From the NCBI RefSeq assembly GCF_900107255.1, contig NZ_FNPH01000002.1, positions 124,001 through 188,000 on the forward strand: 64,000 nucleotides of DNA. Direction: 5' to 3'. The notes beneath the pieces were generated by a model. It was not told where the DNA came from. It saw only the letters and a list, made by a program, of their open reading frames with translations, and did not search any database. Numbering within the stretch: position 1 is the first letter of the stretch; the number at the start of each line of letters is the position of its first letter. Source of the stretch: Micromonospora pattaloongensis. GTDB taxonomy: Bacteria > Actinomycetota > Actinomycetes > Mycobacteriales > Micromonosporaceae. The position numbers and the translations under genes are program-made. Positions 30,121 to 46,040 of the stretch are shown piece by piece.

Positions 30121-30858
30121 ATGCTCAGACGTACCGGCAGAGTCCTCGCCGCGCTCACCCTCGCCGCGGCCGCGACGCTCGTCGGGGCGGTCACCACCGC
30201 CGCCCCCGCGCGCGCCGACGGCTGCTACACCTGGGGGCGCACCCTCTCCCCGGGCATGACCGGCGAGGACGTGCGGCAGCTGCAGATCCGCGTCGCCGGC
30301 TACCCCGGCTACGGGGCGGTGCTCGCGATCGACGGCGACTACGGCCCCGCGACCAAGTCCGCGGTCACCCGCTTTCAGCAGGCGTACGGCCTGCCCGCGG
30401 ACGGCGTCGCCGGGCCGCAGACGTTCAACCGGATCTACGCGCTGCAGGACGACGACTGCACCCCGGTCAACTTCAGCTACGCCGAGTTCAACGACTGCAA
30501 CTCGGACTGGTCCGGCGGTGCGGTCTCCGCCGCAACCGCCCGGTTCAACGCGCTGGTCAACATGTGGAAGCTGCAGGCCATGCGGCACGCGCTGGGCGAC
30601 CAGCCGATCCGGGTGACCAGCGCCTTCCGCAGCCACGCCTGCAACAACGCTGTCGGCGGCTCCGCCACCAGCCGCCACCTCTACGGCGACGCTGTCGACC
30701 TCGGCGTCAGCCCACACTCGCTGTGCCGGCTGGCGCAGCAGGCCCGCAACCACGGCTGGAACGAGATCCTCGGCCCCGGCTACCCGGGCCACGACGACCA
30801 CACCCACGTCGCGCACAAGTCGAGCCGCACCTGGTCCGCGCCGACCTGCGGCATCTGA
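30121..30858 (+). CDS. Secreted M15 D-Ala-D-Ala carboxypeptidase with PG-binding domain
   Basis: 245 residues. Signal peptide (RVLAALTLAAAATLVGAVTTAAPARA), then a peptidoglycan-binding type-1 domain (~residues 45-105: MTGEDVRQLQIRVAGYPGY, YGPATKSAVTRFQQAYGLPADGVAGPQTF), then an M15A zinc peptidase. Zinc and catalytic residues are in SRHLYGDAVDLG (H, D) and HDDHTHVAH (H). Cysteine pairs are probably disulfides. It should trim cell-wall peptides. A TTGACA at 30056-30061 is a candidate -35 upstream. The S-A-F-R-S-H motif typical of the family precedes the zinc site. Confidence 0.92.
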   Translation: MLRRTGRVLAALTLAAAATLVGAVTTAAPARADGCYTWGRTLSPGMTGEDVRQLQIRVAGYPGYGAVLAIDGDYGPATKSAVTRFQQAYGLPADGVAGPQTFNRIYALQDDDCTPVNFSYAEFNDCNSDWSGGAVSAATARFNALVNMWKLQAMRHALGDQPIRVTSAFRSHACNNAVGGSATSRHLYGDAVDLGVSPHSLCRLAQQARNHGWNEILGPGYPGHDDHTHVAHKSSRTWSAPTCGI

Positions 30859-30918: not shown

Positions 30919-30982
30919 CGGGTCAGTCCGCGCCGAAGCGGTCGGAGAGGCGGGTCAGTCCGCGCCGAAGCGGTCGGAGAGG
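30919..30982. repeat. Perfect 32-bp tandem duplication over a stop codon
   Basis: Bases 30919-30950 are repeated exactly at 30951-30982. The unit spans the last codons and the stop of the RibD-type reductase gene (minus strand, stop at 30955). The second copy downstream is out of frame and non-coding. Confidence 0.85.
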
Positions 30983-31647
30983 GCGTAGCGCAGCAGCACG
31001 ACGTCGTCGATCTGGCGCACCTCGGCGATGCTGGCGCGGCGCCCCGGATGCCAGGGAAACCGGCCGTCGCGCACAAAGCGGGGCGCCCGGCAGTCGCCGA
31101 CGAAGAACGGCGCCACCACCAGGTGCAGCTCGTCGGCGAGCCCGGCGGTCAGGAACTGCGAGTGCATGGTGCCGCCGCCCTCGACCATCAGCCGGCGTAC
31201 GCCGCGGGCGGCGAGGTCGGCCAGCGCCCGCACCGGCTCGACCGGCTCGCCGGCGTCCACCACCGTGGCGACCGTCCCGAGCCGCTCGCGCGCCTTCTCC
31301 ACGGCGCCCGTCGCGCAGTACACGATCTTCTCGGTGTCGCCGGTGGTGAAGAACCGCGCGCCCGGATCGAGGTCGCCGCTGCCGGTCACGGTGACCTTGG
31401 TGGGCGACGGCGGCAGCCCGCGCGCGACCCGCTCGTCGCGGCGCCGCTGCGCGCGCACCAGCAGCCGCGGGTTGTCCAGCCGCACCGTGCCCGCGCCGAC
31501 CAGGATCGCGTCGCACTCGGCGCGCACCTCGTCGATCCGGTCCAGATCGTCCGAGTTGGACAGCATCAGCCGCTGTCCGGTGGCGTCGTCGATGTAGCCG
31601 TCCATCGACATGGCGCAGCTGAGCAGGACGTACGGTCGGTCACTCAC
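30955..31647 (-). CDS. RibD C-terminal/DHFR-fold reductase
   Basis: 230 residues, only the reductase half of RibD; the deaminase domain is absent. Landmarks: PYVLLSCAMSMDGYIDD at the N-terminus, DAILVGAGTVRLDNPRLLVR, then KVTVTGSGDLDP and RRLMVEGGGTMHSQFL for NADPH binding. This type reduces the ribosylamino group of the RibA product to ribitylamino. GTG 31647 overlaps the ribA stop by 8 bp, so it is translationally coupled to ribA. Its 3' end carries the 32-bp tandem duplication. Confidence 0.88.
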   Translation of the reverse strand: MSDRPYVLLSCAMSMDGYIDDATGQRLMLSNSDDLDRIDEVRAECDAILVGAGTVRLDNPRLLVRAQRRRDERVARGLPPSPTKVTVTGSGDLDPGARFFTTGDTEKIVYCATGAVEKARERLGTVATVVDAGEPVEPVRALADLAARGVRRLMVEGGGTMHSQFLTAGLADELHLVVAPFFVGDCRAPRFVRDGRFPWHPGRRASIAEVRQIDDVVLLRYALSDRFGAD

Positions 31648-32296
31648 GGACGAACGGCAGGTCGAGGGTGTGTTCGCCGCGGCTGGCCTTGGTGGCCAGG
31701 TAGCCGGCGTTCGCCGGGGACAGGTACACCCCGGTCGTCACCCGTTGGGTCACTGTCACCCCGAGCCGGCCGAGCTGCTCGGCCTTGTCGGGGTTGTTGC
31801 TCAGCAGCGCGACGCCCTCCACCCCGAGCGCCGCGAGCATCTGCGCCGCCGCCGTGTAGTCGCGCTCGTCCTCGCGGTGGCCCAGCGCGACGTTCGCCTC
31901 GTACGTGTCCAGGCCGGCATCCTGCAGCGCGTACGCCTCCAGCTTGGTGTAGAGCCCGACGCCGCGCCCCTCCTGCCGCAGGTACAGCAGGAACCCGCCG
32001 GCGTCGGCGATCCGCTCGACCGCCTCCCGCAGCTGCGGGCCGCAGTCGCAGCGCTGACTGCCGAACACGTCCCCGGTCAGGCACTCGCTGTGCGGGCGGA
32101 CCAGCGGGGTGCGCCCGTCGGTCGCGCGCCGGTCGGGCGGCGCGGCCCAGTCACCGAGGCCGAACGCCAGATGCTCCCGCTCGTCGGCCAGGCCGTTGAA
32201 CGTGAACACCCGCGCGGTCGTGGCGTACCCGTCGGGGAAGCGCAGCGGCACCGTGACCTGGGTCCGGACCGTCGCCACCCGCAGTGCTTCGTACAT
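31640..32296 (-). CDS. ribA: GTP cyclohydrolase II
   Basis: 218 residues, free-standing RibA without a RibB partner domain. The zinc triad is C-x10-C-x-C in HSECLTGDVFGSQRCDCG, followed by LRQEGRGVGLYTKLEAYALQD and the nucleotide site TGVYLSPANAGYLATKA-like end (N-N-P-D-K before it). It opens GTP to 2,5-diamino-6-ribosylamino-pyrimidinone phosphate, formate and pyrophosphate. The genes around it are not the ordinary rib operon (no ribB, ribH or ribE), so this copy probably feeds another product. No FMN riboswitch is visible in the 67-bp gap upstream. Confidence 0.92.
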   Translation of the reverse strand: MYEALRVATVRTQVTVPLRFPDGYATTARVFTFNGLADEREHLAFGLGDWAAPPDRRATDGRTPLVRPHSECLTGDVFGSQRCDCGPQLREAVERIADAGGFLLYLRQEGRGVGLYTKLEAYALQDAGLDTYEANVALGHREDERDYTAAAQMLAALGVEGVALLSNNPDKAEQLGRLGVTVTQRVTTGVYLSPANAGYLATKASRGEHTLDLPFVRE

Positions 32297-32363
32297 TCGT
32301 CTCCTCCGTCAGACGCTGCCGGACCCGCCCGCAGCGCGTACCGCCTCGACAACCATGTCGCTC

Positions 32364-33335
32364 TCACCCAGCGGCGGCGCCCGCGACCCGGACGGCGGTG
32401 GGCACCCGGACCCGCCGCAGCAGCAACACGGCGGCACCGGGAAGACTGGAGACGATCACCAGCGCCCCGTACACCATGGCGGTCGCGACGCCCTGGCCGG
32501 CGGTCAGGCCGGCGGCGGCGAACGCCCACGCCGCCACGCCCTCGCGCGGCCCGAAGCCGGCGACGTTGGCGGGCACGCTCATCGCCAGCAGCGCCAGCAG
32601 GGTCAGCGGCACCAGCTCCGACAGCGGCGCGGTGGCGCCCGCGGTGCGCGCCGCGACCAGGAAGGTCGCCAGGTGACCCGCGACGACCACCACCGAGGCG
32701 ACGAGCACCCCCGGCCAGGCCCCGCGGGCCAGCAGCCCGGCCCGGACGTCGGTCACGGCGGCGCGCAGCACCCGCGCCCGCCGCGAGGGGCCCGAGCGCG
32801 GCAGGGCCCGGCCCAGCAGGACGACGCCGAGCCCGCCGACCAGCAGCAGCGCGAACGCGACCGGCAGGTACGGCCGGACCGGCGACGGAAGCGCGACGAG
32901 CACGACCACCGCGACGACGGCCTGGACGACCTGTCCCGCGGTCCGCTCCCACACCACCGCGCGGACGCCCCGGCCGACGTCGCCGACGTCCCGGCCGTGC
33001 CGCACCGCACGGTCGACGTCACCGACGACGCCACCGGGGAGCGTCGCGTTCAGGAACACCGAGCGGTAGCAGTGCGCGACCGCGGCGCCGAACGGCAACC
33101 GCACCCCGAGACCGTCGGCGACCAGCCGCCACCGCCAGGCGCAGCAGACGGTGGTGAGCGCGCCGAGCCCGAGCGCCGCCGCCAGCGCCCACGGCTCGAT
33201 GGCGCGCAGCCCGTCGAGGAACGGGCCGGCGCCCAGCCGCCACGCCAGCACGGCGAGCACGGCGGCCCCGCCGAGCGCCCGCGCCCACGCCCAGAACGCG
33301 CGCGCGCCGCGCCCGGTCCCGTCACCGTTTCGCAC
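32364..33335 (-). CDS. Flippase-like membrane protein (LPG-synthase TM / UPF0104 family)
   Basis: 323 residues, about eight membrane helices. Family motifs: AWRWRLVADGLG in the second loop, YRSVFLNATLPGGVVGDVDRAVR, the VVWERTAGQ segment and SVPANVAGFGPREGVAAWAF. This is the membrane half of lysyl-phosphatidylglycerol synthases without the aminoacyl-transferase domain. Stand-alone copies are suspected to move glycolipids across the membrane. Its place in an operon with a glycosyltransferase and cyclohydrolase suggests export of the pathway product. GTG 33335 follows GGGGAGG. Confidence 0.85.
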   Translation of the reverse strand: MRNGDGTGRGARAFWAWARALGGAAVLAVLAWRLGAGPFLDGLRAIEPWALAAALGLGALTTVCCAWRWRLVADGLGVRLPFGAAVAHCYRSVFLNATLPGGVVGDVDRAVRHGRDVGDVGRGVRAVVWERTAGQVVQAVVAVVVLVALPSPVRPYLPVAFALLLVGGLGVVLLGRALPRSGPSRRARVLRAAVTDVRAGLLARGAWPGVLVASVVVVAGHLATFLVAARTAGATAPLSELVPLTLLALLAMSVPANVAGFGPREGVAAWAFAAAGLTAGQGVATAMVYGALVIVSSLPGAAVLLLRRVRVPTAVRVAGAAAG

Positions 33336-33394
33336 CCGCCGGCCTCCCCGGAAGAAACGTCTTCCTGCCTGTACGCACGCGACCGCCCGCCGGT

Positions 33395-34219
33395 TCACCC
33401 GGCGCCGGCGAGCAGGTCGTGGTGATCGACCACCACCCGCAGCCGTCCGGCGGCGGCCTCCGCACGGCGCCGACGGGCGTACGGCGCCGCGGGCCCGGCG
33501 AGCTCCGGCCGCTGCTCGCACGCGGCGTCCACCCAGCCGGTGAGCCACTCGGCGATCAGGTCCGCCTGCTCCGGGCCCAGCCGCCACGGGCTGGATCGCA
33601 CGTCGACGTCGACGCCGTGCCGGGTGAACGCCGCGGCGCAGGCGTCCGCCGCGTCCGGGCCGAGCAGCGTCCGGCCGTCGACCGTGCGGCGCTGATGGTC
33701 GTTGAACGCCGCCGCGATCTCGGCGTCCAGCGGATCGGCGGGCGTGAGCTGGACCCGCCCGATCACCGAGATCATCAGCAGCGCCGGGCATCCGGCCCCC
33801 GCGCAGGCCGCCACGACCCGCTCGATCTCGTCGGCGGTCAGCATGTCGAGCAGCGCGGACGCGGTGACCAGGGACGCGCCGTCGAGGTCGGCGGGGGTGA
33901 GCCGGGTGATGTCGCGGCGCCGGGTCTCGACGGTGACGGGCGCGCCGTCGGCGGCGGTGTCGACCATGTCGGCCGCGGCCCGTTCCAGCAGGTCGGCGTC
34001 CCGGTCGTACATGATCCAGTGCTGCGGCCCGGCCAGCCGCGGGGCGAGCCACCGCCCCATCGACCCGGTGCCGCTGCCGAAGTCGTGGATCACCGTACGT
34101 CCACCGCCGGCCAGTCGCCGGCGGACCGGCTCCAGCAGCTCGGACGCGCGGGCCGCGGCGTCGGCGGGCTCCCGGAGCCGGAGCCAGTCGGCGAACGTCC
34201 GGCTCGCCTCGGCGCTCAT
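33395..34219 (-). CDS. Class I SAM-dependent methyltransferase
   Basis: 274 residues. SAM site: VIHDFGSGTGSMGRWL, then HWIMYDRDADLLERA and DLDGASLVTASALLDMLT. The C-terminal part (VDVDVRSSPWRLGPEQADLIAEWLTGW, ~residues 200-274) is characteristic of the actinobacterial copies in this kind of cluster. It is likely an O- or N-methyltransferase acting on the pathway intermediate. ATG 34219 overlaps the GT stop (ATGA), so the two are coupled. Confidence 0.88.
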   Translation of the reverse strand: MSAEASRTFADWLRLREPADAAARASELLEPVRRRLAGGGRTVIHDFGSGTGSMGRWLAPRLAGPQHWIMYDRDADLLERAAADMVDTAADGAPVTVETRRRDITRLTPADLDGASLVTASALLDMLTADEIERVVAACAGAGCPALLMISVIGRVQLTPADPLDAEIAAAFNDHQRRTVDGRTLLGPDAADACAAAFTRHGVDVDVRSSPWRLGPEQADLIAEWLTGWVDAACEQRPELAGPAAPYARRRRAEAAAGRLRVVVDHHDLLAGAG

Positions 34220-35253
34220 GCCGCCACCGCCGCGGTCAGCGCGCCGGCGACCCGGGCCGCGGTGACGTCCCAGCCGGTCAGCGTCGCACGACGGCCGTGC
34301 GCGGAGCGCCGCAGCCGCCGGCGCAGCTCCGCGTCGCCGAGCCAGCGCCGCAGCGCCCCGGCGAGCGCTCCCGGATCCCCCGGCTGCACCAGCAGGCCCG
34401 GCCGGCTCCCGTCGGGCGCCCGCCCCAGCGCCTCCGGCAGCCCGTCCACGTCGGAGGCCAGCACCGGGATTCCCCGGGCCAGCGCCTCCGTGACCACCAT
34501 GCCGTACGTCTCGGCGCGGGAGGCGAGCACGAGCAGGTCGGCACCGGCGTACGCGGCGGCGAGCCCGTCGCCGGTGCGCGGGCCGACCAGGCTGACGCGG
34601 CCGGCGACACCGGCGGCGTGCGCCCGTCGGCGGAGCCGGTCGACGAACTCCGGATCGCGGGTCAGGGCGCCGACGCAGACGCAGCGCCAGGGCAGGTCCG
34701 CGGCGGCGGCCAGGGCCTCCATCAGCACGTCGTGCCCCTTGCCGGCGGTGACGGCGGCGACGCAGAGCAGCTCCGCGCCGCCGGCCGACCCGGTCGCCAG
34801 CGGCGCGGGGTCCACCCCGGGCGTGGCGACGTGCACCCGCTGGGCGGGCAGCGCGTACCGGTCGAGCAGTTGGCGCCGCGTCCACTCGCTGGTCGCCACG
34901 ATCGAGGTGGCGGCGGCCAGCGCCGCCCCCTCGGCGTCGTCGCACAACGGCATGTGCACCAGGACGACCAGACGCAGTCGGCGGGCCGCCGGGACCAGCA
35001 CCTGCGGCACCGCCGAGGCGACCAGCCCGTCGAGCAGCACCACCGCGTCGTCGTCGAGACCGGCGAGCAGCCGGGCGAGCCCGGCGCGCTCCGTCGCGGT
35101 CGGCCGCGGCCACGCGCCGGGGACGACGTGCTCCCGGAGGCTCCAGCCGGCGGCGGTCAGTCCGGCGCAGACCCGCCGGTCGTACGTGTTGCCGCCGCTC
35201 GGCGTGGCCGGATCGTCGATGTCGTGGGGCAGCACGACGTTGACCAGCCTCAT
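34216..35253 (-). CDS. GT4-family glycosyltransferase
   Basis: 345 residues of GT-B fold. N-terminal acceptor domain: [28 protein letters not shown]-terminal nucleotide-sugar domain: [20 protein letters not shown], then the E-x7-E motif in [23 protein letters not shown]. It should transfer a sugar from a nucleotide donor to the pathway acceptor on the cytosolic face. It overlaps the PTPS-like gene by 4 bp upstream and the methyltransferase by 4 bp downstream. Confidence 0.9.
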
Positions 35254-35648
35254 AGCGGGCGCTCGTAGCTGGCCCAGGCGATGTGCGACTCGTGCAGCGT
35301 CACCGTGATCCCGGCCAGCCCGCGCGCCCCGTCGCCCAGGTCGCCGGCGTGGACGCGGTCGGCGAGCCGGTCGGCGATCGTCCGGGCGAGCACCTCGGTC
35401 GTGGTGTTCACGCCGGCGAACGCGGGCTCGTCGTCGAGGTTGCGGTAGGTGAGCTCGCCGAGGACCGCGTTCAGCTGCTGCGCGGCGAGCCCGATGTCGA
35501 CGACGATGCCGTCGGCGTCGAGCTCGGCCCGCCGGAACGTCGCGTCGACGACGAACGTCGCGCCGTGGAGTCGCTGCGCGGGTCCGAAGACCTCGCCCCG
35601 GAAACTGTGCGCGATCATGATGTGATCACGGACGGTCACGCTGAACAC
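35250..35648 (-). CDS. PTPS/QueD-like protein with altered active site
   Basis: 132 residues with the T-fold of 6-pyruvoyl-tetrahydropterin synthase. Kept features are H14 in IAHSF, the H of [14 protein letters not shown] and the late E in [11 protein letters not shown]. Changed features are important: the usual LHGHNY is LHGATF (second zinc His lost), no Cys precedes it (QRLHG), and the D-H pair of LDHxxLN reads TYRNL. So classic PTPS or QueD catalysis is unlikely. It probably handles a related GTP-derived ring or acts as a different lyase. GTG 35648 follows GGAGAG by 6 nt; the gap to the MDR gene is 3 bp. Confidence 0.82.
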
Positions 35649-35651
35649 GGT

Positions 35652-36632
35652 TCACTCTCCGTCGTAGGTGATGAGATGGCACAGCGCGGGAAGGCTCCCG
35701 GCCGCCAGTTGGACGAGCACGTCGGGTAGCTCCGCGAACCGGGACTCGCCGGTGATCAGCGCGTCGAACGCGGGATCGCGCAGCAGCTCCAGCGCCAGCG
35801 CCAGCCGGTCGGCGAAGCTGCGGCTGCCCCGGCGCGCCGGCGACACCATGCCGACCTGGCTACTGCGGATGGTCAGCCGTCCGGAGTGGAACGCTCCGCC
35901 CAGCGACACGTTCACCGCGCGGTCGCCGTACCAGCTCAGCTCGATCACCGTGCCCTCCGGGGCGAGCAGCTCCAGCGACCGCTGCAGCCCCTCGGCGGTC
36001 GCGCTGGCGTGCACGACCAGGTCGCGCCCGCCCGCCGCGTCGGCGGGCAGCGCGAATTCCACGTCCAGCGCGGCGGCGATCTCCGCCCGGGCGGGATCGG
36101 CGTCGACGAGCTCGACCCGGACGCCGGGGAACCGGGCGGCCAGCGCCGCGACGCAGCACCCCACCATGCCGCCGCCCACCACCGTGATCCGGTCGCCGAC
36201 CAGCGGCGCGGCGTCCCACAGCGCGTTCACCGCGGTCTCCACCGTCCCGGCGAGCACGGCCCGGGCCGGCGGCACCCCGTCGGGCACCACCACCACGGCG
36301 TCGGCCGGGACGACGTAGGCGGTCTGGTGCGGGTGGAGGCAGAAGACGGTACGGCCGGTGAGCGCCGCCGGGCCCGCTTCGACCACGCCGACGTTGAGGT
36401 AGCCGTACTTCACGGGCGCCGGGAAGTCGCCCTCCTGGAACGGGGCGCGCATCGCGGCGTGCTGGCCGGCCGGCACGCGACCGGAGAAGACCAGCGTCTC
36501 GGTGCCCCGGCTGACGGCGGAGTGCAGCGTGCGGACCAGGACGTCGTCGGGGCCGGGCGCGGGCAGCGTCACCGGCCGGATCTCGCCCTGCCCGGGCGAG
36601 CGCAGCCAGAAGGCGTGGGCCTCCCGCGTCAC
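35652..36632 (-). CDS. MDR-family (zinc-type) alcohol dehydrogenase
   Basis: 326 residues of medium-chain dehydrogenase fold: N-terminal GroES-like region (VLVRTLHSAVSRGTETLVFSG), then a Rossmann domain with VVGGGMVGCCVAALAARF and a downstream acidic VELVDADPARA that favours NAD(H). The structural-zinc cysteines are absent and the usual catalytic Cys is replaced in SAVSRGTE, as in the BchC/threonine-dehydrogenase-like subgroup. It should oxidise or reduce a sugar or polyol carbon. First gene of the seven-gene operon; GTG 36632 follows GAGGAG. Confidence 0.87.
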   Translation of the reverse strand: MTREAHAFWLRSPGQGEIRPVTLPAPGPDDVLVRTLHSAVSRGTETLVFSGRVPAGQHAAMRAPFQEGDFPAPVKYGYLNVGVVEAGPAALTGRTVFCLHPHQTAYVVPADAVVVVPDGVPPARAVLAGTVETAVNALWDAAPLVGDRITVVGGGMVGCCVAALAARFPGVRVELVDADPARAEIAAALDVEFALPADAAGGRDLVVHASATAEGLQRSLELLAPEGTVIELSWYGDRAVNVSLGGAFHSGRLTIRSSQVGMVSPARRGSRSFADRLALALELLRDPAFDALITGESRFAELPDVLVQLAAGSLPALCHLITYDGE

Positions 36633-36731
36633 GGTTTCTCCTCATTTGTGGAATCTGGACCGAACCGAACGCCCACGCTTTCCGTGTTCCCTGTCGTCAG
36701 CGGGTCGTCGATCTTTACTCACGGAGGCATG
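36633..36731. promoter_or_regulatory. Divergent promoter region of the two pathway arms
   Basis: 99 bp separate the seven-gene minus-strand operon from the plus-strand CDP-alcohol transferase set. It must hold both promoters; a TTTACT at 36713-36718 is a possible plus-strand -10. I see no strong palindrome. Confidence 0.4.
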
Positions 36732-37481
36732 GTGCCCAGGGTTCAAACCGGTCCGGCGATCGGGCTGATCATCCAGTTTGTCCTGCTCGCCGGCCTCGCC
36801 GCGACCGCCGGGCTCGGCCTGGCGGGCTGGCTCGCCGGACTCGCGCACGGGACCGTGACGTGCCTCGTGCTCGCCCACGGGCTGCGCCGGTCCGGCGCGC
36901 CCGGCCTCGGGCCCGCCGACCGGGTGACGCTGGCGCGGGCCCTGCTGGTCGGCGGCGTCACGGCGCTGACCGTGGACGGCTTCACCCGGCCTACGCCGGT
37001 CGGGCTGCTGGTCGCCCTCACCGCCGTGGCGCTGTCGCTCGACGCGGTCGACGGATACGTCGCCCGGCGCACCGGCACCGTCAGCGCGCTCGGCGCGCGC
37101 TTCGACATGGAGGTCGACGCGTTCCTGATCCTGGTGCTCTGCGTCCACGTCACGCCGGCGGTGGGTCCCTGGGTGCTCGCCATCGGGGCGATGCGGTACG
37201 CCTTCGTGGTCGCCGGCTGGGCGCTGCCGTGGATGCGTGGCTCGCTGCCGCCGCGTCACTGGCGAAAGGTCGTCGCGGCCGCCCAGGGCGTGCTGCTGGC
37301 CGTCGCGGCCGCCGAGGTGCTGCCCGGGCCGGGGACCGCCGTCGTGCTCGCGGTGTCGCTGGCCCTGCTGATCGAGTCGTTCGGCCACGACGTCGGGTGG
37401 CTGTGGCGGCACCACCCCGCCCGCCCCGGCACCGCCGCCGGCCCGGTGGGCAGCCCCTCCCCCGGTCTGATCCTGCGCTGA
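36732..37481 (+). CDS. CDP-alcohol phosphatidyltransferase family protein
   Basis: 249 residues, about six membrane helices. The catalytic motif D-x2-D-G-x2-A-R-x8-G-x3-D-x3-D is complete: SLDAVDGYVARRTG then GARFDMEVD. It joins a CDP-activated alcohol (usually CDP-diacylglycerol) to a hydroxyl acceptor with loss of CMP. GTG 36732 has a better-spaced GGAGG (4 nt) than ATG 36729. It is the first gene of the plus-strand set and suggests the pathway product becomes a phosphodiester lipid. Confidence 0.88.
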   Translation: MPRVQTGPAIGLIIQFVLLAGLAATAGLGLAGWLAGLAHGTVTCLVLAHGLRRSGAPGLGPADRVTLARALLVGGVTALTVDGFTRPTPVGLLVALTAVALSLDAVDGYVARRTGTVSALGARFDMEVDAFLILVLCVHVTPAVGPWVLAIGAMRYAFVVAGWALPWMRGSLPPRHWRKVVAAAQGVLLAVAAAEVLPGPGTAVVLAVSLALLIESFGHDVGWLWRHHPARPGTAAGPVGSPSPGLILR

Positions 37482-37493
37482 GGAGACGTGGAC

Positions 37494-38162
37494 GTGACCC
37501 AGTTCGACGCCGTGCTGTTCGACGCCGGCGACACCCTGATCCGGCTGACCGGCAGCGGCGAGACGCTGCTGCACAGGGCGGCCGCCGCCCTCGGCGTCGA
37601 CCGGCTCGACCCGGACGAGGTCGCGCGGGTGTGGCGGCGCGTGCTGGAGCGCGCCGGCACCGCCGAGGAGCTCGCCAAGGGCCGGGACCTGTCGCCCGAG
37701 CGGCACCGCGAGGTGTGGACGGCGCTGTACGACACCGCCGGGTGCGAGAAGCTGGCGCCGGGGCTGAGCGGGCACCTGTACGCGCTCACCGTCCGGGCGG
37801 AGTCCTGGGAGGCGTTCCCGGACAGCGTCGACACCCTCAGGTCGCTGCACGAGCGCGGCGTACGGATCGGGGTCGTCAGCGACACCGGCTTCGACCTGCG
37901 CCCGGCGCTGGAGCTGCGCGGGCTGTCGCCGTTCGTCGACACCGTCGTGATGTCATACGAGTGTGGGGTGTGCAAGCCGGCGGCGACGCCGTTCCTGATC
38001 GCGTGTGAACGCCTCGGCGTGGCCCCGGAGCGCGCCCTCATGGTCGGCGACAACCCGCTCACCGACTCGGGCGCGGTGGCCGCCGGCCTGTACGCGTTCC
38101 TGCTGCCGCCGGCGGCGGCGGCCGGCCCGCGAGGGCTCCGGCACGTCCTGGCCCTGGTCTGA
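37494..38162 (+). CDS. HAD-family phosphatase
   Basis: 222 residues. Motif I is AVLFDAGDTLIRL, motif II is GVVSDTGFD, motif III Lys in CGVCKPAATPFLIA and motif IV MVGDNPLTDSGAVAAGL. The helical cap makes it HAD-IA type. It starts 12 bp after the CDP-alcohol transferase, and GTG 37494 has an AGGAG 8 nt upstream (GTG 37488 is only 2 nt from it). A phosphatase after a CDP-alcohol transferase often removes phosphate from a phosphatidyl-alcohol phosphate, as in phosphatidylglycerol synthesis. Confidence 0.87.
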   Translation: MTQFDAVLFDAGDTLIRLTGSGETLLHRAAAALGVDRLDPDEVARVWRRVLERAGTAEELAKGRDLSPERHREVWTALYDTAGCEKLAPGLSGHLYALTVRAESWEAFPDSVDTLRSLHERGVRIGVVSDTGFDLRPALELRGLSPFVDTVVMSYECGVCKPAATPFLIACERLGVAPERALMVGDNPLTDSGAVAAGLYAFLLPPAAAAGPRGLRHVLALV

Positions 38163-38186
38163 CCCGCACCCGGAAGGACACCCCGC

Positions 38187-39914
38187 ATGCTCCCCGAAAC
38201 GCCGCACCGCAGCGAGGCCACTGTGGAGGAGACACCGACGGCGGACGCCGGTCCCGCCGGGCACGGGGGCAGGCGCCGCGTGGCCGCCTGGGCCATCACC
38301 GCGCTGGCCGGCCTGCTGGTGCTCGTCGCTCTCACCGCGCCGAACCAGCTCACCCGGCTCACGCCCGCCGCGTTCCTGCGGATCCCGCTCGAGGCGCTGG
38401 CCACGGTCGCCGTCCTGCTCGTGCTGCCGCCGTGGCCGCGCCGGGTCGTGGCCGGGCTCGCCGGGTTCACCCTCGGCCTGCTGGCCGTCCTGAAGGTCGC
38501 CGACATGGGGTTCTACGGGGCGTTCGACCGGCCCTTCCACCTCGGTGTCGACTGGGTGCTCTTCGACGACGCGGCGGGGTTCGTGTCCGACTCGTTCGGT
38601 CGGACCGCCGCGATCGGCGCGGTGGTCGCGGCGGTGCTGCTCGTCACCGCGGTGCCCGTGCTCCTGGCGCTGTCGGTGCTGCGGCTGACCCGGCTGGTGG
38701 TCCGGCACGACGTCACGGCGCGGCGGTCGGTCGCCGCGCTGGCGGTCGGCTGGCTGGTGCTGGCCGCGCTGGGCGTGCGGATCGTCCCGGACGCGCCGGT
38801 CGCGGACAGCAGCGCGACCGCGCTGGTCTACGACCACGCGCGCCAGGTGCGCGCCGGCCTGCAGGACCGGAAGACGTTCGCCGCGGAGCTCGCCGACGAC
38901 GCGTTCGGGAACACCCCGGCCGATCAGTTCCTGACCGCGCTGCGCGGCAAGGACGTGATCGTCGCGTTCGTCGAGAGCTACGGGCGCGACGCGGTCGAGG
39001 ATCCGGAGTTCGCCCCGCAGGTCGGCGCGGTGCTCGACGACGGCGACCGGCGACTGCGCGCCGCGGGCTTCGCCTCCCGCAGCGGCTTCCTCACCTCACC
39101 GGCGATGGGCGGCGGCAGCTGGCTGGCGCACGACACGCTGCTCTCGGGGGTGTGGATCGACAACGAGCAGCGGCACCGCGCGCTGCTGGCCAGCGACCGG
39201 CTCACCCTGGGCACCGCGTTCCGGCGCGCGGGCTGGCGGACCGTCGGCGTCATGCCGGCCATCACGCAGGACTGGCCGGAAGGGGCGGTCTTCGGCCACG
39301 ACCGGCTGTACGACAACCGCAATCTCGGCTATCGCGGCCCGACCTTCGCCTACGCCCCGATCCCCGACCAGTACACGCTGTCGGCGTTCCAGCGGCGGGA
39401 GCGGCCGGAGGCGGACCGGCGCCCGGTGATGGCGGAGATCGCCCTGGTGTCCAGCCACTCGCCGTGGACGACCATCCCCCGGCTGCTGGACTGGGACTCC
39501 CTCGGCAACGGCCGGGTCTACCGCGACGCCACCGCCGCGACCGAGAAGCCGCAGCAGGGGGTGCGCGGCGATGCCACCACCCGCGCCCGCGCCGGCTACC
39601 GGCGCGCGATCGAGTACTCGCTGAGCAGTGTCATCTCCTACGTCGAGCGGTACGGCGACGACGACCTGGTCCTCGTCCTCCTCGGCGACCACCAGCCCAC
39701 CCCGCTCATCACGGGCGAGGGCGCCACCCGGGACGTGCCGATCACCATCGTGAGCCGGGACCGGGCGGTGCTGGACCGGATCGCCGGCTGGGGCTGGCAG
39801 GAGGGGCTGCGGCCCGGTCCGCAGGCCCCGGTCTGGCGGATGGACACGTTCCGGAACCGCTTCCTGACCGCCTTCGGTCCGCACCCCGGGACCGCCCCGG
39901 GGCGCCCCCGCTAG
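38187..39914 (+). CDS. Membrane sulfatase-like / LtaS-type phosphotransferase
   Basis: 575 residues. Five membrane helices occupy residues ~30-205, followed by an extracellular alkaline-phosphatase-superfamily domain: VIVAFVESYGRDAVEDPEF, then SGFLTSPAMGGGSWLAHDTLLSG (candidate Thr/Ser nucleophile region), MAEIALVSSHSPW and LVLVLLGDHQPTPLI with the late D-H metal pair. The layout is that of lipoteichoic-acid synthase and other phosphoethanolamine or phosphoglycerol transferases. It probably transfers a phospho-alcohol on the outer face. It lies 24 bp after the HAD gene with GGAAGGA before the ATG. Confidence 0.85.
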   Translation: MLPETPHRSEATVEETPTADAGPAGHGGRRRVAAWAITALAGLLVLVALTAPNQLTRLTPAAFLRIPLEALATVAVLLVLPPWPRRVVAGLAGFTLGLLAVLKVADMGFYGAFDRPFHLGVDWVLFDDAAGFVSDSFGRTAAIGAVVAAVLLVTAVPVLLALSVLRLTRLVVRHDVTARRSVAALAVGWLVLAALGVRIVPDAPVADSSATALVYDHARQVRAGLQDRKTFAAELADDAFGNTPADQFLTALRGKDVIVAFVESYGRDAVEDPEFAPQVGAVLDDGDRRLRAAGFASRSGFLTSPAMGGGSWLAHDTLLSGVWIDNEQRHRALLASDRLTLGTAFRRAGWRTVGVMPAITQDWPEGAVFGHDRLYDNRNLGYRGPTFAYAPIPDQYTLSAFQRRERPEADRRPVMAEIALVSSHSPWTTIPRLLDWDSLGNGRVYRDATAATEKPQQGVRGDATTRARAGYRRAIEYSLSSVISYVERYGDDDLVLVLLGDHQPTPLITGEGATRDVPITIVSRDRAVLDRIAGWGWQEGLRPGPQAPVWRMDTFRNRFLTAFGPHPGTAPGRPR

Positions 39915-39968
39915 ACGCCGCCGACTCGCGGGCCTCTTCGTCGCCGACCCCCGTTTAGGGTGGGCGGC

Positions 39969-40421
39969 ATGGCCGAGTCGTGGGACCCCACCGCTACCGG
40001 CGTGCTGCGGCTGCCCTCCGGCCGGCTGGTCCGGGGGCGGGCGCTGCGCCGGCCGCTGCCGCCGGGGCCCACACCCACCTTCGGCCTCTACCTGCTGGGC
40101 ACCGAGCCGCCCGCCCGCGCCTGGGAGAGCCGGTGGTTGCGCTGGCCGGACTTCCGGCTGCCGGCGGACCGCGCGCAGGCGCGGCTGCTGCTGCGCCAGG
40201 CGTGGGAGCGGGCGGCGACCGGGCGGGTGGAGCTCGCCTGCCGCGGCGGCCGGGGACGGACCGGCACGGCGCTGGCCTGTCTGGCCGTGCTCGACGGCGT
40301 TCCGGCGGAGCGGGCGGTGGCGTTCGTCCGGGAGCACTACGACCCGCACGCCGTGGAGACGCCCTGGCAGAAGCGGTACGTCGCCCGCTTCTCCGGGCGC
40401 GGGGATGCGGTCACGGGGTGA
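39969..40421 (+). CDS. Protein-tyrosine-phosphatase-like protein
   Basis: 150 residues. The C-x5-R phosphate loop is visible as ACRGGRGRTGTALACLA, with general-acid Asp candidates earlier (RWPDFRLP). The size and late position of the loop resemble small dual-specificity/Cys phosphatases. It follows the sulfatase-like gene by 54 bp and may still belong to the same transcript. TAGGGT lies 7 nt before the ATG, so it can also be expressed from its own nearly leaderless promoter. Confidence 0.8.
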   Translation: MAESWDPTATGVLRLPSGRLVRGRALRRPLPPGPTPTFGLYLLGTEPPARAWESRWLRWPDFRLPADRAQARLLLRQAWERAATGRVELACRGGRGRTGTALACLAVLDGVPAERAVAFVREHYDPHAVETPWQKRYVARFSGRGDAVTG

Positions 40422-41393: not shown

Positions 41394-41519
41394 CTGCCTG
41401 GACCGCCTGCGCGGCGGCGCGTGATCTTGCAGTGCTCTCCCAGTCTCGGACGTGCATACTTGTGCGGTTCACGTTCGTGCCGGAGGGCCTGCTCGTCCGG
41501 CTGCTGCGCGAGGGTGGTT

Positions 41520-44500
41520 GTGGTGGTCGAGAAGACGTCGTCCGGCGGACGCGGGGTTTCCAACAGCACGGCGGCGATGGCGGACCCCGGTCTGCGACAA
41601 CTGCTCGCGGGTCTGACCGCCGTGCGCGACGGCGACTTCGGCACGCGCCTGCCGGAGGACGGCGACGGCCTGCTGGGCGAGATCGCGACCGTCTTCAACG
41701 GCATGGTCGACCAGCTCTCGCTCTTCACCTCCGAGGTCACCCGTGTGGCCCGCGAGGTGGGCACGGAGGGGCAGCTGGGCGGTCAGGCCGAGGTGCCCGG
41801 CGTCTCGGGCACCTGGAAGGACCTCACCGACTCGGTGAACGCGATGGCCGGCAACCTCACCGACCAGGTCCGCGACATCGCCGAGGTCGCCACCGCGGTG
41901 GCCCTGGGCGACCTGTCGCAGAAAATCACCGTGGACGTGCGCGGCGAGATCCTGGAGCTGAAGAACACCATCAACACGATGGTCGACCAGCTGTCGTCCT
42001 TCGCCGACGAGGTCACCCGGGTGGCCCGCGAGGTGGGCAGCGAGGGGCGGCTGGGCGGCCAGGCCGAGGTGCCCGGCGTCGCCGGCACCTGGCGCGACCT
42101 CACCGACTCCGTGAACTTCATGGCCGGCAACCTCACCAGCCAGGTCCGCAACATCGCCCAGGTGACCACCGCGGTCGCCCGCGGCGACCTGTCCCAGAAG
42201 ATCACCGTCGACGCCCGCGGCGAGATCCTGGAGCTCAAGAGCACCATCAACACGATGGTGGATCAGCTGTCGTCCTTCGCCGACGAGGTCACCCGGGTGG
42301 CCCGCGAGGTCGGCACCGATGGCCGGCTCGGTGGGCAGGCGCAGGTCAGCGGCGTCGCCGGCACCTGGCGCGACCTCACCGACTCGGTGAACTCGATGGC
42401 CGGCAACCTCACCGACCAGGTGCGCAGCATCGCCCAGGTCGCGACCGCCGTGGCGCGCGGCGACCTGTCGCAGAAGATCACCGTTACCGCGCACGGCGAG
42501 ATCCTGGAGCTGAAGAACACCATCAACACGATGGTGGATCAGCTGTCGTCCTTCGCCGACGAGGTCACCCGGGTGGCCCGCGAGGTCGGCACCGAGGGCC
42601 GGCTCGGCGGCCAGGCGGACGTCAAGGGCGTCTCCGGCACCTGGAAGGACCTCACCGAGTCCGTCAACGTCATGGCGGACAACCTCACCGCGCAGGTCCG
42701 CAGCATCGCCGAGGTGACCACCGCGGTCGCGAAGGGCGACCTGTCCCAGAAGATCCGGGTCGACGCCCGAGGCGAGATCCTGGCGCTGAAGGAGACCATC
42801 AACACGATGGTCGACCAGCTCTCGGCGTTCGCCGACGAGGTGACCCGGGTGGCCCGCGAGGTGGGCACCGAGGGCCGCCTCGGCGGCCAGGCGCGGGTGT
42901 CGAACGTCGCCGGCACCTGGAAGGACCTCACCGACAACGTCAACGAGATGGCCAACAACCTCACCAACCAGGTGCGCTCGATCGCGCTGGTGGCGACGGC
43001 GGTGGCGCAGGGCGACCTGAGCCGGCAGATCACGGTGGAGGCGAAGGGCGAGGTCGCCGTCCTCGCCCAGACCATCAACACCATGGTCGACACGCTCGGG
43101 GCGTTCGCCGACGAGGTGACCCGGGTGGCCCGCGAGGTGGGCACCGAGGGCCGCCTCGGCGGCCAGGCCCGGGTGCCGAACGTCGCCGGCACCTGGAAGG
43201 ACCTCACCGACAACGTCAACTCGATGGCGAACAACCTCACCGGCCAGGTCCGGAACATCGCCCAGGTCACCACCGCGGTGGCGCAGGGCGACCTGACCAG
43301 GAAGATCGACGTCGACGCCCGCGGCGAGATCCTGGAGCTCAAGACGACCATCAACACGATGGTCGACCAGCTCTCCAGCTTCGCGGCCGAGGTCACCCGG
43401 GTGGCCCGCGAGGTGGGCAGCGAGGGCCGCCTCGGCGGCCAGGCCGAGGTCGAGGGCGTCTCCGGCACCTGGAAGCGGCTCACCGAGAACGTCAACGAGC
43501 TGGCCGGTAACCTCACCCGCCAGGTCCGCGCGATCGCCGAGGTGACCAGCGCGGTCGCCACCGGCGACCTGACCCGCTCCATCACCGTGGAGGCGCCGGG
43601 CGAGGTCGGCGAGCTGAAGGACAACATCAACTTCATGGTGGAGTCGCTGCGCGAGACCACCCGGACCAACCAGGAACAGGACTGGCTCAAGACCAATCTG
43701 GCCCGGATCGCCGGGCTGATGCAGGGCCACCGCGACCTCGACGTCGTCGCCGGCCTGGTCATGAACGAGCTCGCCCCGCTGGTCTCCGCGCAGCTCGGCA
43801 CGTTCCTGCTGGTCGACGACAGCAGCGGCGGCACGGAGCTGCGGGTGGTCGGCGGCTACGGCCACAGCGCCGCGGGCCGGCGGTACGCCCTCGGCGAGTC
43901 GCTGGTCGGGCAGGTCGCGGTGAGCAAGCGACCGATCGTGGTGGACGCGGTGCCCGCCGACTACTTCACGGTCTCGTCCAGCCTCGGCGCCAGCGCCCCG
44001 CTGCACCTGATCGTGCTGCCGATCCTCTTCGAGGACCAGGTGCTCGGCGTGATCGAGCTGGCCAGCATGGGCCGCTTCACCGAGACCCAGCACGACTTCC
44101 TCAACCAGCTCACCGAGACGATCGGCGTCAACGTCAACACCATCGTGGCGAACGCCCGCACCGACGTGCTGCTGACGGAGTCGCAGCGGCTCGCGGCCGA
44201 GCTGCAGGCCCGGTCGGAGGAGCTGCAGGCCCGCTCCGAGGAGCTGCAGCGCTCCAACGCCGAGCTGGAGGACAAGGCGGCGCTGCTGGCCCGCCAGAAC
44301 CACGACATCGAGACGAAGAACTCCGAGATCGAGCAGGCCCGGCAGGAGCTGGAGGCCCGCGCCCAGCAGCTGGCGCTGGCCTCGAAGTACAAGTCGGAGT
44401 TCCTGGCCAACATGAGCCATGAGCTGCGTACGCCGTTGAACTCGCTGCTCATCCTCGCCCAGCTGCTGGCCCAGAACCCGGCCGGCAACCTGACCGGCAA

Positions 44501-46040
44501 GCAGGTCGAGTACGCGACGGTGATCCACTCGGCCGGCACGGACCTGTTGCAGCTCATCAACGACATCCTCGACCTGTCGAAGGTCGAGGCCGGCAAAATG
44601 GACATCAACCCCGAGACCTTCGAGCTCTCCACGCTCTGCGACTACGTCGACGCCACCTTCCGGCCGTTGACCACGCCGCGCGGGCTGGAGCTGGAGATCA
44701 GCACCGGGGCCGACGTGCCGACCGAGCTGCACACCGACGAGCAGCGGCTCCGGCAGGTGCTGCGCAACCTCGTCTCCAACGCGGTGAAGTTCACCGAGAA
44801 GGGCCGGGTGGAGCTGCGGGTCGACCGGGTCGGGCCCGGTGAGCTGCCCGAGAGCTTGGAGCCCGCCGACGCGGTCGTCGCGTTCCGGGTCACCGACACC
44901 GGAATCGGCATCGCCGAGCAGCACCTCACCGCCATCTTCGACGCCTTCCAGCAGGCCGACGGCACCACGAGCCGGCGGTACGGCGGGACGGGCCTCGGGT
45001 TGTCGATCAGTCGCGAGATCGCGCACCTGCTCGGCGGCCAGATCACCGCGGAGAGCGTGCTGGGACAGGGCAGCACGTTCACGCTCTACCTGCCGGTGAC
45101 CGCCCCGACCGTGGCCCCCGGCGGCGAGCCCGGCACCGCCCCCGTCGCGCTTCCGGTGGCGCTGCCGCCGGCCGTCCCGGTCGCGCCGGGCGAGGGCCGC
45201 CGGGTGCTGGTGCTGGAGCGCCACGACAACGGGCTGCTGACGCTGCTGACCCAGGGGGTGGCGACCGACCTGGGCGAGGCGGCCCCGCCGGTGGAGGTGT
45301 TCACCGCGGTGGACGCGGCCTCGGCGATGGAGGCGCTGACGCATCGCCCGTACCACTGCGTGGTGCTGCAGCTCGACGCCCCCGACGACACCGGGACGGT
45401 GGTGCTCAAGGCGCTGCACGACGACCTGACGCTGCGCGGCGTGCCGGTCCTCGCCTACCACGGGCACCCGCTGACCCCCAACCAGGACTCCCTGTTGCAG
45501 GTGCTCGCCCACGAGCGTCCGTTGGAGCTGCTGCGCAGCCTCGACGACCTGCGTGAGCGGATCACGCTGCACCTCACGGCCGTCACCCCGGAACGGGTCC
45601 TGCCGCTGAGCGCCGCCGCGCCGGAGACGCGCCCGGCCGCCGAGTCCGGCCTGGGCGAGCTGACCGGACGCAAGGTGCTGGTGGTCGACGACGACGCCCG
45701 CAACGTCTTCGCGCTGACCAACATCCTGGAGCTGCACGGGATGGACGTCGTCTACGCGGAGAACGGCCGCAAGGGCGTCGAGATGCTGATGCGTCACGAC
45801 GACATCGACCTGGTGCTGATGGACGTGATGATGCCGGAGATGGACGGGTACGCCGCGACCGCCGCGATCCGTGCCATGCCCCGCTACGCGAACCTGCCGA
45901 TCATCGCGGTCACCGCGAAGGCCATGCACGGCGACCGGGAGAAGAGCATCTCCTCCGGCGCCAGCGACTACGTCACGAAGCCCGTCGACGCCGCCGACCT
46001 GCTGCAGTGCATGGGTCGTTGGCTGAGCGCCGGGAGGTAG
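41520..46040 (+). CDS. Soluble poly-HAMP hybrid histidine kinase (group III/Nik1-like)
   Basis: 1506 residues with no membrane helix or signal peptide. Residues ~25-710 hold about 15 HAMP domains: one initial HAMP and seven 92-residue units, each an [10 protein letters not shown]...LTDSVN type followed by an AEVATAVA...GDLSQKI type. Then come GAF (~738-880), a coiled coil of LQARSEELQ repeats (~890-955), HisKA with H967 in [10 protein letters not shown], HATPase (~1073-1193), a pseudo-receiver (~1229-1353, the phosphoacceptor position reads VVLQLDAP), and a true receiver with D1435 in [11 protein letters not shown]. The plan matches fungal osmosensing kinases of group III. GTG 41520 sits 5 nt after AGGG; the earlier in-frame ATG 41421 encodes an unlike Cys-rich lead. 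Confidence 0.88.
41733..43664 (+). repeat. Seven tandem 276-bp repeats encoding paired HAMP domains
   Basis: The unit starts GAGGTCACCC at 41733, 42009, 42285, 42561, 42837, 43113 and 43389, an exact 276-bp period with no insertion or deletion. Several adjacent units share long near-identical stretches, so copy number could change by recombination. Confidence 0.92.

Follow-up and report, generated by a model that had tools for sequence, protein, structure and literature searches.

A gene cluster in Micromonospora pattaloongensis raises the question of what a GTP cyclohydrolase II (RibA) and a RibD C-terminal-type (RibD_C) pyrimidine reductase do among genes for sugar transfer, methylation and membrane functions. 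The cluster lies in the 64,000-nucleotide stretch analysed here (contig NZ_FNPH01000002.1, positions 124,001 to 188,000, hereafter the window), where seven closely packed minus-strand genes, read as open frames at the positions of Table 1, encode a dehydrogenase (ADH), a PTPS-like T-fold protein, a GT4-type glycosyltransferase, a methyltransferase, a putative flippase, RibA and RibD_C, opposite a plus-strand arm with a CDP-alcohol transferase and an LtaS-like protein. On balance, we consider it probable that the window holds one copy of a conserved two-module actinobacterial pathway, composed of a GTP-derived head module and a membrane module. On the best reading, the head product would be a glycosylated 2-amino-pyrimidine or pterin that is lipidated, flipped and decorated by the membrane module; we infer every catalytic step, as well as the lipid attachment, from the protein families.

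One scan found at least 454 relatives of the PTPS-like protein, and the neighbourhood counts that follow refer to the best 80 loci, fetched with up to 10 kb per side and searched by tblastn (E 1e-5), some misses being contig ends. A core of six genes (ADH, PTPS-like, GT4, methyltransferase, flippase and CDP-alcohol transferase) was found together in 67 of the 80 loci, in line with the remark in the original prediction, made from the sequence before this analysis, that similar gene sets exist in other actinobacteria; many actinobacteria of the soil carry the set. Taken singly, ADH and GT4 occur in 80/80 loci, the methyltransferase in 77, the flippase in 76, the CDP-alcohol transferase in 74, RibA in 72, a creatininase-family gene in 47, RibD_C in 36 and the LtaS-like gene in 19, all within 10 kb. 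In 72 of the 80 loci the CDP-alcohol gene is found in divergent orientation within 1 kb on the upstream side of ADH, an arrangement that exceeds chance. The host genera are Micromonospora and relatives, Streptomyces, Pseudonocardia, Amycolatopsis, Kutzneria, Sciscionella and Actinomadura, together with metagenome-assembled genomes. Of the plus-strand genes in the range originally given, the CDP-alcohol and LtaS-like genes stand, whereas the HAD hydrolase and the tyrosine-phosphatase-like gene were rejected as core members: tblastn (E 1e-5) recovered the former at 1/80 loci and the latter at none. The HAD gene is kept as an accessory since copies 71-73% identical recur in three of the five alternative loci described below. 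A distant ADH-PTPS-GT4 set exists in another family of the same class (locus L128, genome G008; ADH and PTPS-like 57-58% and GT4 32-39% identical), where no further cluster gene was recognised nearby in a partly masked stretch. Two genomes (G528 and G412) carry two PTPS-like copies each.

The joint occurrence of the two arms was followed in 101 genomes taken as Micromonosporaceae, given that the locus of one (G204) matches a Micromonospora locus at 92%, and in 51 genomes of a second genus (g8), probably Streptomyces, given that six loci match Streptomyces loci at 81-88%. Within the family, the PTPS-like gene was found in 63 genomes, ADH in 69, the CDP-alcohol gene in 68 and the LtaS-like gene in 69. 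The last two occur jointly in 68 genomes and are both missing from 32, the CDP-alcohol gene being alone in none and the LtaS-like gene alone in one; the PTPS-like and CDP-alcohol genes are both present in 60 and both absent in 30, with the former only in 3 and the latter only in 8. Two of those three genomes are incomplete (G414, 69% complete; G471, 77% complete), the third being G470. The CDP-alcohol gene lies within 10 kb of the PTPS-like gene in 50 of 60 family genomes and within 10 kb of the LtaS-like gene in 35 of 68. In the second genus, all three genes were found in the same 20 of the 51 genomes; the CDP-alcohol gene is 1.7-2.1 kb from the PTPS-like gene in 20/20, and the LtaS-like gene is close by (within 4 kb) in only 3, shares the contig at a distance of 0.8-5.1 Mb in 6 and sits on a different contig in the other 11. 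Mapped onto an rpoB tree built from 50 of the 51 genomes, the genes show five changes, all joint, two of which are forced by well supported branches. Since joint presence and absence persists even when the genes are unlinked, the two arms belong together, with a tendency of their genes to be inherited, and lost, as a group. The original prediction would have fallen had the arms never co-occurred in other genomes, and they do (68/101 family genomes, the same 20/51 in the second genus); the part of it that placed both arms in one lipid-linked pathway is thereby upheld as to their association, while the lipid attachment and the product keep the rank of predictions.

A further view of this coupling comes from eight family genomes that have the CDP-alcohol and LtaS-like genes and lack a PTPS-like protein of the window's type, seven of which have a diverged ADH. 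Five of the seven diverged-ADH loci were fetched (G475 and G506 were left out; the assembly of the eighth genome, G446, consists of 780 contigs). Each of the five encodes another PTPS-family protein, 25-27% identical to that of the window (Pfam was run on three), beside a RibA that is 52-54% identical in the aligned part; the methyltransferase, flippase and CDP-alcohol proteins, where called, are 52-60% identical to the window's. Gene calls at these loci recovered the methyltransferase in 5, the CDP-alcohol gene, ADH and GT4 in 4 each, HAD in 3 and the flippase in 2; the fifth CDP-alcohol gene and the fifth ADH come from the genome-wide searches instead. RibA and RibD_C are fused according to Pfam in both alternative loci tested, and at the remaining three the RibA frame spans 442 to 501 amino acids. 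Alike membrane proteins lie close to the CDP-alcohol gene in three loci (L124, 7730-8719; L125, 7239-8159; L130, 8154-9074), the L124 copy matching Exo_endo_phos and scoring 230 bits with the VanJ model (cut-off 700). A GPP34 (Golgi phosphoprotein 3-like) gene is also found near an alternative cluster (L124, 9581-10276); GPP34 binds phosphoinositides in eukaryotes.

The rival explanation that survives best, although we hold it to be unlikely, is that two separate pathways are neighbours here: the head genes would make a soluble glycoside of a pterin or pyrimidine, the CDP-alcohol and LtaS-like genes an envelope lipid that has nothing to do with it, and shared regulation or ecology alone would keep them together. 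It would agree with five genomes (G411, G428, G453, G490 and G504) in which the CDP-alcohol/LtaS-like pair, 0.9-1.9 kb apart, is away from the PTPS-like gene, with the head genes of G470, which have no CDP-alcohol or LtaS-like partner, and with the fact that no enzyme directly connects the head and lipid arms. However, it does not readily explain why the arms are present or absent jointly even when unlinked, why the same membrane genes accompany an exchanged head, and why the flippase and methyltransferase are so regularly part of the loci (76/80 and 77/80).

The entry into the head module can be followed through RibA. The window protein conserves the zinc Cys triad and Arg128 (C, C, C and R in every aligned row) and has Tyr at the position of Tyr105 of the Escherichia coli enzyme, a residue that acts in deformylation. 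Among 73 cluster loci including the window, this position is Tyr in 27, Met in 41 and His in 5, and a creatininase-family gene is present at 46/46 Met/His loci versus 0/27 Tyr loci; at 45 of the 46 it is no more than 1.5 kb from RibA (the exception is L082). With same-genome paralogs and alternative loci added, the gene accompanies 47/47 Met/His and 0/55 Tyr sequences, the test of the non-cluster RibAs covering about 1.5 kb of flank. A RibA survey of 14 genomes (44 matches, reduced to 30 loci and 29 readable residues) gave Tyr in 24, Met in 2 and His in 3; all five Met/His proteins are cluster copies, one of them (L111) on a different contig from its PTPS-like gene. The pairing has an exception in a Sciscionella locus (L028), where the creatininase-family gene is shortened and RibA absent, and where the two RibA copies read from the genome have Tyr (there are three partial matches besides); we read this as decay. 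The cluster RibAs fall into three tree groups, QEGR-Tyr (support 100), Met/His (94) and the RibA-RibD_C fusion (98). No independent origins of the Met/His switch were found, all cases lying on one side of a single branch.

SCO6655, a GTP cyclohydrolase II paralog of Streptomyces coelicolor, was reportedly found by Spoonamore and Bandarian to release a formylated product (FAPy) owing to Met120. The creatininase-family protein BrbF deformylates a formylated pyrimidine intermediate, according to excerpts of PMC9478397. If FAPy release as by SCO6655 and formamidase action as by BrbF both carry over, all lineages of the cluster would arrive at the same deformylated pyrimidine. The resulting genomic rule, by which a Met/His RibA is accompanied by a creatininase-family protein, lends itself to assays of the purified enzymes.

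The reductase matches the archaeal-type model TIGR01508 (141 bits, cut-off 186) and ribD_Cterm (127 bits, cut-off 150). It lies within 1.5 kb of RibA at 26/27 Tyr loci versus 9/46 Met/His loci, and in Pseudonocardia acidicola (L045) the RibA and RibD_C matches share one frame. The fusion in the two alternative loci and the close spacing at Tyr loci suggest that reduction directly follows RibA. As to a dedicated reductase elsewhere in genomes that have no linked one, the L024 reductase was searched against 16 genomes, of which its own, G400 and G401 alone hold relatives at 69% identity or more. Window-type RibA-RibD_C pairs were also seen in S. himalayensis (L115) and Kutzneria (L116), with RibA 68% and 67% identical, the Kutzneria pair being on a different contig from, or far from, the PTPS-like locus; the pair may be a stand-alone unit.

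The PTPS-like protein matches SCO6650 (PDB 3d7j) over its whole length (E 2.4e-68). In an alignment of 21 rows, made of the window protein and 20 relatives 80-89% identical to it, H14, A24, H28, A30 and E120 are invariant. The catalytic Cys of the QueD/PTPS motif CxxxHGH is thus replaced by Ala24 in 21/21 rows, and among the three zinc-binding His of these enzymes H14 and H28 are present, with Ala30 at the third position (the second His of HGH), again in 21/21; the protein is indeed an altered PTPS, as had been proposed. The C-terminal Glu of QueD/PTPS is retained (E120, 21/21 rows), also in 9/9 rows that include the alternative T-fold type; in the PTPS family this residue anchors the pterin. 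The alternative type keeps three zinc His (HSH) and has Glu at the Cys position, so that the C-terminal Glu and two His are common to both. The crystallographers of SCO6650 are said to have found neither zinc nor PTPS activity. Excerpts of a PTPS subfamily review call PTPS-V unclear (PMC5041015). The neighbouring dehydrogenase is closest among NCBIfam models to TIGR01202 (bchC, E 5e-15, 55 bits, cut-off 291); the catalytic-zinc Cys of the RspB GIC-GSD motif appears to be replaced, in a weak local alignment with a weak domain score, and a S(R/K)GTE-type motif is found in all 16 aligned rows.

On this basis, RibA would open GTP to 2,5-diamino-6-ribosylamino-4(3H)-pyrimidinone 5'-phosphate (DARPP), a step that a creatininase-family formamidase would complete in other lineages, and RibD_C would reduce ribose to ribityl with no deamination. 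The dehydrogenase and the PTPS-like protein may then remodel the 2-amino-4-oxo-pyrimidine, and the GT4 enzyme may attach a sugar. The membrane genes suggest lipidation and flipping: the CDP-alcohol transferase would attach a phosphatidyl group, or one like it, to the product or the sugar phosphate of the product, flipping would fall to the LPG_TM protein, and the LtaS-like enzyme would add or remove a phospho-substituent on the outside, with the methyltransferase capping the product and HAD, where present, removing a phosphate. As a guess, RibD_C reduction at C1' followed by dehydrogenase oxidation at C2' would yield, by redox, the same 1-amino-1-deoxy-ketose that forms in GTP cyclohydrolase I through an Amadori rearrangement, and the T-fold protein would close this compound to a dihydropterin. 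Such re-oxidation and closure of the ribityl chain is suggested by the retained 2-amino group, the Glu-anchored T-fold, the reductase beside RibA and the dehydrogenase. The full version of this proposal, a lipid-anchored, glycosylated and methylated pterin on the outer face of the membrane, made by a route independent of GTP cyclohydrolase I with a zinc-less T-fold ring closure, is doubtful; if true, it would add a surface lipid of a new class, which may be connected with aerial growth or sporulation.

It is unlikely that the T-fold protein instead performs both Amadori rearrangement and ring closure on the ribosyl compound, the reductase and dehydrogenase acting on the sugar or side chain. 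The reductase is missing at most Met/His loci, as would be expected, and T-fold relatives include GTP cyclohydrolase I, but RibA and RibD_C are fused in two alternative loci and close together at nearly all Tyr loci, as given above, which points to reduction directly after RibA.

The membrane arm and its accompanying enzymes were compared with known families. The CDP-alcohol protein conserves the motif DxxDGxxAR...G...D...D in 13 aligned rows, and its nearest NCBIfam models are weak and mixed. For the LtaS-like protein, no match was found in Pfam at E 0.001 or in NCBIfam at E 0.01; its profile reached one solved sequence only, a lipoteichoic acid (LTA) primase (E 0.0075), and a low-confidence model (mean predicted local distance difference test, pLDDT, 57) matches PbgA, LtaP, LtaS and EptC at E of about 1e-5. 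These comparisons weakly point to a membrane-anchored alkaline-phosphatase-superfamily protein, with 'LtaS' as a superfamily label; the original call of an LtaS-like transferase is retained at that level only. The GT4 protein has MshA-like and generic matches among solved structures (18 at E 1e-5), none of them a pteridine glycosyltransferase; its relative MshA works on a polyol phosphate. Excerpts of PMC5683033 describe a Chlorobium pteridine glycosyltransferase whose family is given as 'GT-1- and AviGT-4-like'. The methyltransferase model (pLDDT 92; best VIA match Z 19.6, root-mean-square deviation 3.4, 237 aligned) has an ordinary class I fold that gives no clue to the substrate. Going by gene order, it would be the counterpart of SCO6652, whose expression is raised in the second mycelium by log2 4.3 (48 h) and 4.1 (72 h) (excerpts of PMC3610822).

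The weak and mixed CDP-alcohol models could also mean that this enzyme makes a soluble phosphodiester, cofactor-like or solute-like, that is exported rather than flipped, and the family does include enzymes with non-lipid or lipid-precursor products. We find this quite unlikely, as an LPG_TM-type membrane protein accompanies the enzyme in 76/80 loci and a membrane-anchored phosphotransferase-like protein co-occurs with it.

Finally, that the cluster is a spare riboflavin-precursor operon boosting flavin supply at certain growth stages is very improbable, and riboflavin supply as its main role was rejected: RibA and RibD_C do belong to riboflavin-pathway families, but the genome has a complete rib operon (ribD, ribE, ribBA and ribH) on a different contig, Pfam and NCBIfam recognised neither a deaminase nor ribB, ribE or ribH among the window cluster genes, six non-flavin neighbours are jointly conserved, and SCO6655 expression is anticorrelated with predicted flux (-0.61, excerpts of PMC2853524). 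The original view that the RibA/reductase pair serves something other than riboflavin therefore gains support; it would have fallen had the pair been the strain's only source of riboflavin precursors, but the separate rib operon shows otherwise.

Several observations weigh against the two-module pathway proposed here. Lipid attachment draws all its support from protein families, and the open literature searched, which leaves subscription papers mostly outside, yielded neither a product nor a mutant or assay for the pathway. The gene set is uncommon across the phylum (10/396 genomes at E 1e-20), RibA is absent near the cluster in 8/80 loci, some of them contig ends, no full second RibA was found in the L026 and L051 genomes, and only ADH and the PTPS-like protein were recognised in G470, where the CDP-alcohol and LtaS-like genes are absent. 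The Fisher test of CDP-alcohol/LtaS-like joint occurrence (p 1.6e-25) ignores relatedness, the five events on the rpoB tree cannot reach significance, and phylogenetic sign tests of joint change on the RibA and rpoB trees had too few independent pairs. Likewise, the Met/His plus creatininase pairing amounts to a single change on the RibA tree, on one side of the branch with support 94, and three creatininase-family proteins score best with MftE (132-143 bits, cut-off 172) rather than ArfB (29-39 bits, cut-off 180), all below cut-off. No reductase was found at 37/46 Met/His loci, and when five such genomes were searched with the linked reductase (E 1e-15), four (G402, G403, G405 and G409) gave no relative and the fifth a 37% match; reduction may thus be borrowed from RibD or not be needed there. 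Lastly, a zinc site absent in one T-fold type and kept in the other fits poorly with a single shared reaction.

All enzyme families of the two-module pathway are known, and two Streptomyces members, SCO6650 and, reportedly, SCO6655, have already been studied as orphans. In Streptomyces tendae the genes run PTPS-like, GT4, methyltransferase, flippase, creatininase-family, RibA, an order that probably corresponds to the numbering SCO6650-SCO6655 in S. coelicolor; whereas this copy has a Met-type RibA with a creatininase-family partner, the window has a Tyr-type RibA, an adjacent reductase and no creatininase. Toxoflavin/7-azapteridine pathways recruit RibA- and RibD-like enzymes for a non-flavin product, to our knowledge with no T-fold, GT4, CDP-alcohol or flippase partners. 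Glycosylated pterins of cyanobacteria and Chlorobium are taken to derive from GTP cyclohydrolase I, and we know of no lipid module in these systems; the likeness is that a glycosyltransferase acts on a pterin (excerpts of PMC5683033 and PMC13259868). The ArfA/ArfB and BrbF entry into riboflavin synthesis shares the early intermediates, a formylated pyrimidine followed by creatininase-family deformylation (excerpts of PMC9478397), but the window cluster lacks deaminase, ribB, ribE and ribH and would feed another product. Assembly of lipid head groups or LTA uses the same enzyme superfamilies and a flippase-like protein, whereas the window set co-occurs with a GTP-derived head module and its LtaS sequence likeness is marginal. 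We know of no system joining a RibA-derived pyrimidine to a lipid module, and on that account rate the joint pathway as categorically new, a rating that drops if the lipid link is wrong. In the same open literature single genes of the set are mentioned (PMC2853524, PMC3610822), whereas the cluster as a whole was found in no paper; the candidate described originally as new remains so for the joint pathway, and not for the PTPS-like protein itself, which matches SCO6650 with its solved structure 3d7j. The proposal would place two Streptomyces puzzles, the role of SCO6650 and the switch residue of SCO6655, in one pathway with defined partners and a likely first intermediate. If it holds, a surface lipid or glycoconjugate derived from GTP, of which we know no isolation, would be widespread among actinobacteria, with many of them producing it. 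These RibA, RibD_C and PTPS genes should not be annotated as riboflavin, folate or queuosine enzymes.

The layout of the locus is compact (Table 1). On the minus strand, ADH and the PTPS-like gene are separated by a 3-bp gap (35649-35651), and overlaps of 4 bp (PTPS-like/GT4, 35250-35253), 4 bp (GT4/methyltransferase, 34216-34219) and 8 bp (RibA/RibD_C, 31640-31647) follow; the spacing from methyltransferase to flippase is about 59 bp, depending on the start codon chosen, and that from flippase to RibA 67 bp. Pfam scores exceed the curated cut-offs for eight window families, the exception being ADH_zinc_N (24.8 versus 31.8 bits).

Table 1. Features of the cluster, in window coordinates.
Feature	Position	Strand	Basis
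RibD C-terminal-type pyrimidine reductase, without deaminase	30955..31647	-	Pfam PF01872, 151 bits; best NCBIfam model archaeal-type
GTP cyclohydrolase II (RibA), Tyr-type	31640..32296	-	Pfam PF00925 GTP_cyclohydro2, 181 bits
LPG_synthase_TM-type integral membrane protein, putative flippase	32364..33335	-	Pfam PF03706, 94 bits
Class I S-adenosylmethionine (SAM) methyltransferase	33395..34219	-	Pfam Methyltransf_25, 30 bits
GT4-type glycosyltransferase, MshA-like C-terminal half	34216..35253	-	Pfam Glycos_transf_1, 94 bits
PTPS-like T-fold protein, matches SCO6650 (PDB 3d7j)	35250..35648	-	Pfam PTPS, 85 bits
ADH, MDR-family dehydrogenase, BchC-like, apparently without catalytic-zinc Cys	35652..36632	-	ADH_zinc_N, 24.8 bits
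Divergent intergenic region of 96 bp between ADH and CDP-alcohol gene, presumed shared promoter region	36633..36728	.	Sequence
CDP-alcohol phosphatidyltransferase-family membrane protein	36729..37481	+	Pfam PF01066 CDP-OH_P_transf, 48 bits; start codon read from sequence
HAD-family hydrolase, accessory	37488..38162	+	Pfam Hydrolase, 75 bits
Membrane-anchored alkaline-phosphatase-superfamily protein (LtaS/EptA/PbgA-like), putative	38187..39914	+	Profile and fold comparison
Tyrosine-phosphatase-like protein, last plus-strand gene	39960..40421	+	Domain match

Just downstream of the operon lies a gene for an M15-type peptidase with a peptidoglycan-binding domain (window 30121-30858), found by tblastn in 0/80 related loci. 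On the other side, a hybrid histidine kinase of 1539 amino acids (window 41421-46040) has eight HAMP matches and GAF, HisKA, HATPase and receiver domains.

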